This document shows positions 19,984-62,444 of a DNA stretch of 64,000 nucleotides, piece after piece. The DNA lies in NCBI GenBank assembly GCA_025457915.1, contig JALOTL010000001.1, positions 124,001 to 188,000 on the forward strand, written 5' to 3'. The translations under genes and the position numbers were made by a program. The DNA comes from Spirochaetota bacterium. GTDB lineage: Bacteria; Spirochaetota; UBA4802; UBA5550. The stretch's first letter is position 1. Each line of letters opens with the position of its first letter. The notes beneath the pieces were generated by a model, which was given only the letters and a program-made list of their open reading frames with translations, was not told the origin of the DNA and did not search any database.

Positions 19984-20003
19984 TTCTTTTATGGCTACCT
20001 CTA

Positions 20004-20049
20004 AAAATCAGGAGTTTCGCTGGTATTATGAATTAAAACTCCTGATTTT
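20004..20049. terminator. Perfect 14-base inverted repeat with flanking A and T runs
   Basis: Left arm 20004-20017 and right arm 20036-20049 are exact complements with an 18-base loop. Runs of A before and T after give it terminator form on both strands. No intact gene ends here on the plus strand, so it may belong to the decayed locus or to an unannotated transcript. Confidence 0.5.
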
Positions 20050-20086
20050 ATCAGATATTATGCCTGATGTGCACGGAAACACTAAT

Positions 20087-55633: not shown

Positions 55634-56100
55634 TATAAAAGCACCGGTAAAAGCAGCATTTTTATCAATATCCCGTTTTTTTATTTTTCCAATATTTTCA
55701 GGACAGGTTAATGTTCACCAGTTTTTAAAGTAATTCTGAAATCCCTCCATTTAAGGTTTTCAAAATCTAATCAAGATGTTATGAACAATATTAACAGCCT
55801 TATCAACAATTAATTTCAATTATCAACAGGTTATCCATAATTTATTAAGAATTAATAACTTTTTTTCCGCACATTTTTTTTTAATAATTAATTTCTTGCC
55901 AAAAAATATTAAATTAATTACAGAAAAACCATCCTGGCTCATATCATCGTTTTTTTTAAAAAGCCAAATTGTTTATTCTTTTTGTTTTTCATTTTTTATA
56001 AAAATATATAAAAACACGATTTATTTTATAAAATTAAAAACACTGAACAAAAGTGTATTCACAAAGTTATCAACATCTGTGGATAAAATAAGGGGTTGAT
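55634..56100. other. Upstream part of the replication origin (DnaA boxes, AT-rich leader)
   Basis: 467 bases, very AT-rich, between the TPR gene and dnaA. DnaA-box-like sites: TTATCAACA at 55800-55808, 55820-55828 and 56067-56075; TTATCCATA at 55831-55839; and a perfect box TTATCCACA on the minus strand at 56086-56078, only 15 bases before dnaA. Between them lie about 220 bases of A/T runs. The site must also hold the dnaA promoter, so DnaA autoregulation is likely. Confidence 0.8.
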
Positions 56101-57453
56101 GTGCCTAAGGTTCTCTGGAGCAATGTTCTTAATTCGCTGGAATCGAAGATCAATAAGCAGTCCTTCAACATGTGGCTGAAGGACACCGAGCCTTTGTCCA
56201 TTACCGGAAATATAATAAAAATCCGCGTCATGGACGACGTGGCCAGGCGTCATATTTCCGACCAGTATTCCGGCCAGATAAATTCGGTGCTGAAAAATCT
56301 CACCGGGCTGAATTATGAGTGCGAATTCATCGCATCAAATGGTTTTTCCCCGGATAAAAAAGCATCAGATGAGCCCAACGGCAATATTAAAACGAACAGT
56401 GAATCATTAAGAAACGGCTTTAAAAACATGGAATCTTTACTGAATCCCAACTACATCTTCAGCAATTTTGTCGTAGGCCCCAACAATCAGCTGGCCCACG
56501 CCGCTGCGCATTCCGTATCCCGCAGCCCGGGAACCCAGATCAATCCTCTTTTTATCTATGGAGGGGCCGGCCTGGGAAAAACCCATTTGATGCAGGCCAT
56601 AGGACATTACGTGATAAGTGAAAAACCTTATCTTAAAGTTCTTTATGTTCCAAGCGAACAGTTCATAAATGAATTCATATCTTCCATCAGGACCAATACA
56701 ACCGATAGCTTTAAAATCAAGTACAGGGATGTGGACATCCTGTTGATAGACGACATCCAGTTTATTGAAAAAAAAGAGGAAACACAAAACGAATTTTTTC
56801 ATACTTTTAATACTCTTTATGACAACAAAAAACAGATCGTGATTTCCAGCGACAGGCCCCCGAAAGAGCTCTCGACCCTGGCTGAAAGGCTCAAGACGCG
56901 ATTCGAATGGGGGATGATAACGGATATTCAGCCGCCGAATCTCGAAACAAGGGAAGCCATATTGAGAAATAAAGCGGAAAAACTCAATCTGCAATTGCCT
57001 GATGATGTTTTTTACTACATTGCAAAAAGGATCAAATCCAACATCAGGGCCCTGGAGGCTTCACTTACCAGGTTGAACATGGTCGCCAGTCTCTATAATG
57101 AACCCATATCAATCAATCACGCAAAAAACCATCTCAAGGATCTTTTCAACGACGATACGAACAAAAAAGTCACCATCGGCGACATCATGGTAAAGGTGGC
57201 CGATAAAAACGGGGTTTCCATCGAGGAGCTTGTATCGAAAAGCAGACACAGCAGGATCATACAGCCTCGTTTCATCGCAATGTATCTTGCCAGGCAGCTG
57301 ACCGGGATGACGACAATCGACATAGGAAAAGAATTCGGCGACAGGGACCATTCCACCGTATTAAACGCCATCAGTAAAATTGAGGAAGACATGAAAAAAG
57401 ATCCCGATCTTTCTGAAATAATTGAAGACTTTATCGTTGAATTAAAGAGTTAA
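56101..57453 (+). CDS. dnaA: Chromosomal replication initiator DnaA
   Basis: 450 residues. Domain I (1-80) contacts partner proteins; domain II is short; domain III is the AAA+ module with Walker A GGAGLGKTH (about 154-162), Walker B ILLIDDIQF (about 212-220) and sensor motifs (SDRPPKEL, RLKTRFEWG); domain IV ends with the DNA-recognition motif GDRDHSTVLNA (about 411-421). The start is GTG with AAGGGG five bases before it. Boxes that it should bind lie on both sides of the gene. Confidence 0.98.
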   Translation: MPKVLWSNVLNSLESKINKQSFNMWLKDTEPLSITGNIIKIRVMDDVARRHISDQYSGQINSVLKNLTGLNYECEFIASNGFSPDKKASDEPNGNIKTNSESLRNGFKNMESLLNPNYIFSNFVVGPNNQLAHAAAHSVSRSPGTQINPLFIYGGAGLGKTHLMQAIGHYVISEKPYLKVLYVPSEQFINEFISSIRTNTTDSFKIKYRDVDILLIDDIQFIEKKEETQNEFFHTFNTLYDNKKQIVISSDRPPKELSTLAERLKTRFEWGMITDIQPPNLETREAILRNKAEKLNLQLPDDVFYYIAKRIKSNIRALEASLTRLNMVASLYNEPISINHAKNHLKDLFNDDTNKKVTIGDIMVKVADKNGVSIEELVSKSRHSRIIQPRFIAMYLARQLTGMTTIDIGKEFGDRDHSTVLNAISKIEEDMKKDPDLSEIIEDFIVELKS

Positions 57454-57560
57454 TATCCTGTGGATAAGAGTTGATTTTCGTAGATAATTAAGGTTGAAAC
57501 TTACAGAATAATGAACAATAATATTTTTTAAACATTTATTTTAATAAATGAACATGAAAT

Positions 57561-57612
57561 ATACCAGCAGTTTTATTTTATCAACAAAGTGATAAAATGC
57601 AACTGCTGGTAT
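57561..57612. repeat. Near-perfect 52-base hairpin carrying a DnaA-box-like site
   Basis: Outer arms ATACCAGCAGTT (57561-57572) and AACTGCTGGTAT (57601-57612) are exact complements; after a two-base mismatch the inner arms ATTTTATCA (57575-57583) and TGATAAAAT (57590-57598) pair around a six-base loop. No T run follows, so it is not a standard terminator. TTATCAACA at 57578-57586 lies across the tip. Confidence 0.8.
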
Positions 57613-57629
57613 TATCAGGAGTTATACGG

Positions 57630-57696
57630 TTATCAACATAAATGTCGCTCTACTACTACAACCATATATTAATTAATTTTATTATATAATTATAAA
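57630..57696 (+). promoter_or_regulatory. DnaA box, DnaA-trio run and AT-rich unwinding element
   Basis: TTATCAACA (57630-57638), an 11-base spacer, CTACTACTA (57650-57658), then some 36 nearly pure A/T bases. This order of box, spacer, repeated trios and AT tract is the basal unwinding system described for Bacillus subtilis. Confidence 0.65.
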
Positions 57697-57707
57697 AGAG
57701 GTAGCAA

Positions 57708-58829
57708 ATGCAGATAAACGTGGATAAAGAATCTTTATTAAGATCGGTGAATATTGCTGATTCTATCGTTTCTAAAAACATAAACACGGTTTTATCCAAC
57801 TGCCTTTTTAATATCTCAAAAAGCCAGATAGAAATTATTTCAACCGACAATGAAATCGCAATCAGAACGAAAATCGATGCAGTTTCTGACTCAAGTCTTT
57901 CATTTACCGCGAACGGAAAAAAACTTTCCAGCATCCTGAAGGAGCTTCCTGATGACGAGCTGGTCATAGATATCAATGATTCCTTCCTGATCGACCTTAA
58001 AACAAAATCGAAGGATGTAAAAGGGCACTACACTATAATCGGTTCATCATCTGAAGAATATCCGGAAGTGCCTGCTTTCGTTGACGAGAACTCCATAGAA
58101 ATAGAGCAGCATCTGCTTAAGGAAATGATCCGGAAAGTGATATACGCGGCATCGTATGATACCATAAAGCCCGTATTCAACGGCCTCTTCTTCAGCTCGG
58201 ACAACCAGGGGAAAATATCCATAGTCGCCACTGATTCAAGAAGGCTTGCCATAATAACAAGGTCCTTTGAAAAAAATATCGATATAGGCGATGGAATCAT
58301 CATCCCGCTGAAAACAATGAATGAGATTTACAGGCTCCTTGAGTCGACAGGAAAATGCAAGTTTACACTGCAGAAGAACCAGTGCTTCTTCAGAATAGGA
58401 AATACTGAAATCATATCCAGAATAGTCGACGGCCAGTTTCCGAATTACAGGCAGGTTATTCCGCATGACACCATATTTGAAGCTCTAGTCGACACAAAAA
58501 AATTTCTCGGCTCGGTCAGGAGGGCGATGATTTTTACACGGGAACCATCCAATAAAATCGTCCTGAATTTCAGCAAAGACAAAATTCTTATCGAAGCAAA
58601 TACCCCCGAACTGGGAAAGGCCGAAGAGGAAATTCCGATTGATTCTGAAAAGGCCGAAAAGATATCCATTGGAATCAATGCGCAGTTTCTCATAGATTCA
58701 TTGAAAGAAATTGATACTGCGAACATGAAATGCGGAATAACAGGACAGATGAGCCCCGTGACCATATTGCCCGAAGACGATTCGAATTATATCTCTGTGA
58801 TAATGCCAATACAGATAAAATCGTCCTAG
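57708..58829 (+). CDS. dnaN: DNA polymerase III beta sliding clamp
   Basis: 373 residues forming the three-domain clamp that holds polymerase on DNA. Recognisable pieces include ISKSQIEIISTDNEIAIRTK, FNGLFFSSDNQGKISIVATD and SRRLAIITRSF, DGQFPNYRQVIP, and the C-terminal end with VTILPEDDSNYISVIMPIQI in the peptide-binding pocket region. Ribosome site AGAGG lies seven bases before the ATG. It is the first gene after the origin and leads into recF. Confidence 0.97.
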   Translation: MQINVDKESLLRSVNIADSIVSKNINTVLSNCLFNISKSQIEIISTDNEIAIRTKIDAVSDSSLSFTANGKKLSSILKELPDDELVIDINDSFLIDLKTKSKDVKGHYTIIGSSSEEYPEVPAFVDENSIEIEQHLLKEMIRKVIYAASYDTIKPVFNGLFFSSDNQGKISIVATDSRRLAIITRSFEKNIDIGDGIIIPLKTMNEIYRLLESTGKCKFTLQKNQCFFRIGNTEIISRIVDGQFPNYRQVIPHDTIFEALVDTKKFLGSVRRAMIFTREPSNKIVLNFSKDKILIEANTPELGKAEEEIPIDSEKAEKISIGINAQFLIDSLKEIDTANMKCGITGQMSPVTILPEDDSNYISVIMPIQIKSS

Positions 58830-58865: not shown

Positions 58866-59975
58866 ATGCACGTAAAAGAGCTCTCTCTAAAAAATTTCAG
58901 AAACTACGGCAGCCAGGAGATTGAATTCACCAATGCTGTAAATTTTTTTATTGGTGAAAACGGGACCGGTAAAACGAACATCATTGAAGCCATATCCATT
59001 CTATCCAACATCCGATCTTTCAGAAACACGCCGGATTCGGAAATAATCAAATGGGGGGAATCCGGATATTATTGTTCCCTTCAGGCAGGCGAATGCGAAA
59101 ATAAAAAATTCGAGGTAGGCTGCCTATATCAGAATGACGGCCTTAAAAAGAAAATCAAAATAGACGGCAGGGAGGTTTCCAATTCTTCAGAATACTACGG
59201 TAAATTACTTACGGTTTTTTTTTCACCCTCGGACATAAGCATCATTTACGGGCCGCCGGAAGCCAGGAGGAGATTCATAGACAGCGCCATATCTAAGATA
59301 GATTCTGGTTATATAGCAACGCTTCTGGATTTTAAAAAGGTGCTGGCCAACAGAAACAGCATTCTGAGAAACATCAGGGAGAAAAAAAAATCCGATGACG
59401 GACAACTTGATGTCTGGGACGGTCTTTTTACAGAAAAGGCCTCCGTCATAATCGGAAAAAGAAAAGCTTTCATTGAAAGATACGCTTCAGTTTTCACAGA
59501 ATCTTACAAAAAAATAATGACCGGGACCGGCCATCCGTATATTAAATATGAGCCTTCAATCGAATCCGCGGACCGAGATTATATTTTCAACAGGCTCTTC
59601 AGGGCCAGAAGGTCCGATATTTACAGGGGAACGACAGGCCAGGGCCCCCAGCGGGACGAATATCTTATCATGAATGAAAACGGAAGGATTTTCAATCATT
59701 TTGCTTCCCAGGGCCAGAAACGAATAGCTTCGATTTCCCTCAAAATATCTGAAAATGAAATTATCGAAGAGGATACGGGGCAAAAAAGCATTCTCCTTAT
59801 TGACGATATTTTTTCTGAGCTGGATGAAAAAAGAAGGGGAAACATGATTGAATTTCTCAACAAGGGAAACCAGATAATATTTACAATGGTGAATTCAAAT
59901 TTTACCGGATTGATTAATTTCAATAATCACAGAAATTTTTTTGTTGAACCCGGCGGGATTATTAAAAGACAATGA
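58866..59975 (+). CDS. recF: DNA replication and repair protein RecF
   Basis: 369 residues, an SMC-like ATPase that loads RecA at gaps. Walker A GENGTGKT lies at 30-37, the signature region near FASQGQKRIASISLKISE, and Walker B ILLIDDIFSELDEKRR close to residue 310. The start has no strong ribosome site, typical for the spacing after dnaN here. Its stop overlaps the next ATG by four bases. Confidence 0.97.
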   Translation: MHVKELSLKNFRNYGSQEIEFTNAVNFFIGENGTGKTNIIEAISILSNIRSFRNTPDSEIIKWGESGYYCSLQAGECENKKFEVGCLYQNDGLKKKIKIDGREVSNSSEYYGKLLTVFFSPSDISIIYGPPEARRRFIDSAISKIDSGYIATLLDFKKVLANRNSILRNIREKKKSDDGQLDVWDGLFTEKASVIIGKRKAFIERYASVFTESYKKIMTGTGHPYIKYEPSIESADRDYIFNRLFRARRSDIYRGTTGQGPQRDEYLIMNENGRIFNHFASQGQKRIASISLKISENEIIEEDTGQKSILLIDDIFSELDEKRRGNMIEFLNKGNQIIFTMVNSNFTGLINFNNHRNFFVEPGGIIKRQ

Positions 59976-60304
59976 AATTCAGGTCAAAAGACAAGAGGTA
60001 TAACAGGACGGCAAGCTTCGATAAAGTTCTTCCTGACATTTTAAAAGCTGCGGGTCTTGAAAAATCATTTACAATAGAGGCATTTCGTGATATATGGAGT
60101 GATATTGTTGGAGACATAATATCGACACATAGCAGGCCTGACAGGATTTTTAACGATATGCTTTTCATTGCCGTGGACCATTCAATATACGGCAATGAAA
60201 TCATCATGATGAAAGACTCTATTATAAAAAAGCTGAATGATGATTTTATAATTCTGGGAATTAAAAACATCAAAATCGAGATAAAAAAAATTGTCTGGAG
60301 TTAA
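59972..60304 (+). CDS. dciA: DciA-type replicative helicase loader (DUF721)
   Basis: 110 residues of the DUF721/DciA family, which helps load DnaB in bacteria lacking DnaC or DnaI. The KH-like core reads FRDIWSDIVGDIISTHSRPD and LFIAVDHSIYGNEIIMMKDS. It overlaps recF by four bases (ATGA) and precedes the RemB-like gene. Location in the recF-gyrB interval is common for this family. Confidence 0.88.
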   Translation: MKFRSKDKRYNRTASFDKVLPDILKAAGLEKSFTIEAFRDIWSDIVGDIISTHSRPDRIFNDMLFIAVDHSIYGNEIIMMKDSIIKKLNDDFIILGIKNIKIEIKKIVWS

Positions 60305-60310
60305 TGATAG

Positions 60311-62444
<2,134 letters not shown>

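Follow-up and report, generated by a model that had tools for sequence, protein, structure and literature searches.

The gap between dnaA and dnaN in this spirochaete raises the question whether the chromosome is opened there for replication, and by which DNA elements. The 64-kb stretch of DNA analysed (the window) comes from contig C26 of a metagenome assembly of 3.66 Mb in 50 contigs, and it encodes, in this order, the initiator gene dnaA (56101..57453, forward strand), the sliding-clamp gene dnaN (57708..58829, forward strand; ATG at 57708), a recF-like SMC_N/AAA gene (58866-59975), dciA, a candidate helicase loader/operator gene (59972..60304, forward strand), and gyrB (60546-62444). The best relatives of the predicted DnaA are found in Spirochaetes metagenome genomes (66% identity).

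The class was sampled with 46 genomes, all of one order, and strong DnaA matches were obtained from about two-thirds of them. Among genomes that are at least 90% complete, 5 of 30 in the class lacked a DnaA C-terminal domain above cut-off (G010, G035, G036 and G039, as well as G033 with a weak match only), compared with 2 of 217 other Spirochaetota searched; since congeners of some of these genomes do have DnaA, assembly gaps are the simplest reading.

The gap between dnaA and dnaN

Basal unwinding systems (BUS) of the Bacillus type have been defined by a DnaA box with at most two mismatches to TTATCCACA, a spacer of 0-16 nt (peak at 10-13 nt) between box and trios, and at least three 3'-NAN-5' trios, with GAT favoured beside the box (PMC8287927). 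In the window, the proximal box is a DnaA box with one mismatch to that sequence (box B, TTATCAACA; 57630..57638, forward strand). Behind it come a spacer of 11 nt (TAAATGTCGCT; 57639..57649, forward strand), read directly like the box, and three DnaA-trios (CTACTACTA; 57650..57658, forward strand), all as described in an earlier note on this DNA. The trios are CTA in the top strand and hence 3'-GAT-5' in the bottom strand; the base after the third is a C, and these three clear trios are the minimum for a BUS. An A/T-only tract before the dnaN leader, the predicted melting region, was also confirmed, at a length of 34 nt (57664..57697) rather than 36; only one other stretch of the window is less stable than the 40-mer that begins at 57664. 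An RBS-like AGAGG and the dnaN start codon follow the tract. The spacer possibly comprises a degenerate second box and a GC-containing end, on the description of such spacers in PMC8287927. One more DnaA box (TTATCCACA; 57459..57467, reverse strand) is located directly behind the dnaA stop codon.

In the structure of B. subtilis DnaA, residues N187, I190, I193, R202 and E228 touch the trio (PMC10721633), and R264 is the arginine finger (PMC8287927). An alignment with 8btg showed N187, I190, I193, E228 and R264 (B. subtilis numbering) to be identical in the predicted DnaA of the window, and R202 to be replaced by K; by this alignment, the protein has most of the single-strand-reading residues, and the arginine finger, that belong to a BUS.

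The conservation set comprised 30 distinct dnaA-dnaN gaps of the class (231 to 376 nt), the window's own included. A module of a distal box (box A), a dyad, box B, spacer and CTA trios was found in 28 of them, with box B placed by eye in eight relatives to replace a wrong automatic choice. Box and trios, the conservation of whose spacing the earlier note had proposed as a check, are separated by 11 or 12 nt in all but two of the 28 species (26), and by 13 and 14 nt in these two; three later species (L218, L219, G029), which had no part in defining the pattern, have the same box-to-trio layout. No such module was found in the dnaA-dnaN gaps of L072 and L073 (one family), although both keep the boxes upstream of dnaA.

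The locus combines the dnaA-dnaN neighbourhood with a DnaA-box cluster and a switch in GC skew. The skew was followed on one complete contig of 291 kb, because the assembly consists of 50 contigs, and its cumulative curve has a clear minimum at window position 59032 and rises afterwards. The scan for further occurrences covered 1.18 Mb of the own genome on both strands, in which CTACTACTA occurs once, the pattern TTAT[CT][AC]ACA, 9-15 nt and CTA[CT]TA occurs once, at this site, and perfect DnaA boxes cluster nowhere but at this locus. AT-rich intergenic regions are typical of this genome, but that box, trios and A/T tract are merely ordinary sequence of this kind, with the origin elsewhere, is highly improbable in view of the single occurrence of the box-spacer-trio combination, the skew minimum at a distance of only 1.4 kb, and the retention of the module in 28 species.

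We therefore interpret the dnaA-dnaN gap as a BUS and as the strand-opening half of oriC, with a probability of about 0.86, and, judged from sequence, it is most likely the site where this spirochaete opens its chromosome for replication. The reading as a Bacillus-style melting site, already put forward in the earlier note, is supported by strand, polarity and spacing, which fit the B. subtilis BUS, and by the retention of most of the trio-reading residues. Neither of the two observations that the earlier note had listed as speaking against it, a skew minimum elsewhere and loss of the box-trio spacing in relatives, was made. As a BUS the module is ordinary, because such modules are predicted in 85% of the bacterial origins examined (PMC8287927); it would add an uncultured class of spirochaetes to the known range of the Bacillus-type system, and our literature search found no origin data for this class. 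The BUS-type origin is thus of a known kind; unexpected are the rigid spacing of the distal box and an apparently undescribed, class-specific dyad.

The distal box and its spacing

The distal box A, the dyad (57601-57623) and the possible degenerate second box had been missed in the earlier note. Box A (TTATCAACA; 57578..57586, forward strand) lies 52 bp upstream of box B. The distal box of B. subtilis is functional from 44 bp upstream onward with helical phasing, for which a loop model has been proposed (PMC6669920); box A of the window falls within this range, close to a permitted phase, and may likewise act through looping. The distance between the two boxes is 52-55 bp in 28 of 28 class species, with a mode of 54 bp, and box A fits TTAT[CT][AC]ACA exactly in 19 of the 28, the others deviating from it at one or two positions.

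Outside the class, one distance was taken for each of 16 Spirochaetota genera, in a small, hand-compiled list drawn partly from a pattern search that allowed 34-64 bp only: eight are at 42-45 bp, six at 52-55 bp, one at 59 bp and one at 63 bp. The list includes two matches not confirmed beside dnaA (g55, g151) and some genera that share ancestry; G294 was left out because its pattern matches are on a different contig from dnaA. A Rayleigh test of these spacings, against a uniform distribution over 36-70 bp, gave p ~0.001 whichever period between 9.5 and 11.5 bp was assumed, so that the list does not resolve the exact period. The clusters are consistent with the helical phasing known from B. 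subtilis. Outside comparison was made with 31 loci from beyond the class; the distance from first to second box is 54 bp in a Clostridiales locus and 54-55 bp in six Bacilli metagenome loci, the gaps of the latter having no CTA trios. These data represent natural evidence, from few genera so far, that the distal DnaA box keeps to two spacings which differ by about one helical turn; the only descriptions of such behaviour that we found concern engineered strains of B. subtilis.

Box A of the window is enclosed by an inverted repeat (57561-57612; 52 nt, with 23-nt arms that are 91% complementary) that is capable of forming a hairpin (folded as DNA, -16.7 kcal/mol, z -7.8). This repeat was not seen in those gaps of relatives that were read.

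The dyad between the boxes

The dyad (AACTGCTGGTATTATCAGGAGTT; 57601..57623; class consensus AAYNNCTGR-N5-YCAGNNRTT) is located between boxes A and B in all 28 module-bearing class species, with 11-14 of its 14 fixed letters; it begins 23-25 nt after box A does, and 6-7 nt separate it from box B. When these segments were dinucleotide-shuffled, a score of 11 was reached in 1.0% and a score of 13 in none of 8400. As these 28 sequences themselves supplied the consensus, a fairer test is provided by the later species L218 and by gaps from elsewhere: L218 matches at 13 of 14 letters (L219 at only 10 of 14, and the left half is weak in G029), and 51 gaps from outside the class scored at most 11, a value reached by three.

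Across the 46 class genomes 128 dyad sites were counted, whereas two matched control dyads gave 3 and 15. These controls were added since a possible role of the flanking A and T made a reversed-pattern control alone unfair. Among genomes at least 90% complete, the 30 of the class contain 104 sites and the 265 others 51 (3.5 versus 0.19 per genome), seven genomes supplying most of the excess. The dyad is class-specific, in that it is absent from the other origins examined and enriched only in this class; we found no paper in the open-access literature on the dyad, or on the distal-box spacing, in this phylum.

The own genome has 14 dyad sites, about half of them in one interspersed repeat, which is present at window positions 20000-20060 and at L138, L140, L143, L145, L148 and L149; several copies share flanks with CACGGAAGCACTAATGCCGCGAC-like stretches. 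Other copies (L147, L150, L155, L157, L115, L132, L134, L130) are found 3' of apparent tRNA genes, or beside apparent cas1-cas2 pairs or an integrase, the genes being judged by eye.

The CTG and CAG of the dyad are centred ten base pairs apart. Its inner N positions pair no more often than in shuffles (8 of 28 versus 7.8, and 5 of 28 versus 10.0), whereas two outer pairs do; in copies outside the origin the inner N positions do not pair either, and some flanking positions do. The lack of covariation at the inner positions places the symmetry in the sequence itself, and the dyad therefore looks more like the site of a dimeric protein than like a hairpin. We suggest, tentatively and at less than even odds, that a class-specific dimeric protein, bound to the dyad at almost all origins of the class, shapes or gates opening; given the other sites, some of them in interspersed repeats, it would then have a global function in the nucleoid or the cell cycle. 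Such a protein, if this reading is true, would be a candidate for a factor acting inside the origin of a whole class. No binder was found, and the neighbours of the other copies share no regulator gene; an approach to the binder through these neighbours was abandoned, as they form a mixed set (apparent cas1-cas2, integrases, tRNA 3' ends, interspersed repeats).

The dyad might instead be an operator through which a transcription factor regulates dnaN, or readthrough from dnaA, and have no part in initiation. The start of dnaN is 85 bp downstream of it, and dyads of the same form elsewhere are mostly intergenic; however, its distances to the two DnaA boxes stay nearly fixed while the gaps vary from 231 to 376 nt in length, and no shared regulator or target gene is adjacent to the other copies, which makes an operator possible but rather doubtful.

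An RNA or DNA hairpin in place of a protein site, i.e. a weak terminator, an attenuator or a cruciform between dnaA and dnaN, is unlikely. The 23-mer of the window alone does fold as DNA (-4.1 kcal/mol, z -6.3), arms of 9-12 bp occur in some relatives, G-T combinations (7) outnumber A-C (1) at one position, and other genomic copies are at tRNA 3' ends. The inner stem positions, however, pair no better than shuffles, also in non-origin copies, shuffled segments often fold equally well (mean p 0.27), most species have no T-run behind the dyad, and a terminator is not expected at fixed offsets to two DnaA boxes.

Proposed course of initiation and a probable two-part origin

With the dimeric protein kept as the preferred reading of the dyad, the following course of initiation can be proposed from the observed sequence, its uniqueness and conservation, the skew, the spacing and the conserved DnaA residues. 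DnaA would bind box B, and an oligomer of ATP-DnaA would spread from there onto the single-stranded 3'-GAT-5' trios, stretch the trio strand and open the A/T tract. The helicase would be loaded at the opened tract, probably aided by the DciA encoded nearby. Box A, about five helical turns upstream, may supply further DnaA via looping, as proposed for B. subtilis, and a dimeric protein bound to the dyad, halfway along the loop segment of 52-55 bp, might fix the path of the loop or gate initiation.

The gap resembles the B. subtilis BUS in its location between dnaA and dnaN, the orientation of the box, the spacer of 11-12 nt, the 3'-GAT-5' trios with an A/T tract downstream, and a distal box whose upstream distance is close to one that permits function. 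It differs in that the second box is degenerate or absent, only three trios are clear, and in the class the distal box lies at 52-55 bp (44 bp in B. subtilis) with a dyad between the boxes. In the oriC of E. coli, sites for IHF and Fis are located between DnaA boxes; the dyad, if a protein site, would similarly be a non-DnaA site at fixed distances between DnaA boxes, but its sequence is different. In a comparison by eye, the invariant G of its CTGR lies outside what we take to be the Fis consensus.

The cluster of boxes upstream of dnaA that the earlier note had reported is present, with two DnaA boxes 20 bp apart (55800 and 55820; 55800..55828, forward strand) as an upstream part of the origin, and an inverted pair (56067-56075 / 56078-56086; 56067..56086) just before the dnaA start codon. 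The inverted pair, 11 bp start to start, precedes dnaA in all 27 class gaps with a complete upstream region (27 of the 30; in L070, L075 and L077, which were left out of this count, the contig begins inside dnaA), and further boxes are found about 250-450 bp upstream in most class species. The inverted pair and these further boxes agree with a two-part origin, as the earlier note had suggested. As far as the contigs extend, dnaA is flanked by box clusters on either side throughout the class, apart from L072 and L073 with their missing downstream module. Boxes both upstream and downstream of dnaA, with the opening site downstream, are also a feature of the bipartite origins of B. subtilis and of H. 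pylori (oriC1 and oriC2, with boxes on both sides of dnaA; PMC8235120), from which the class differs in the inverted pair just before the dnaA start. A motif, AATTAATTTCTTGCCAAAAA, was also observed at 55886-55905 of the window, with close counterparts (AATTAATTKGTTGCCAAAAA) about 200 bp before dnaA in most of the relatives whose upstream regions were printed in full; it is perhaps a promoter -35 region.
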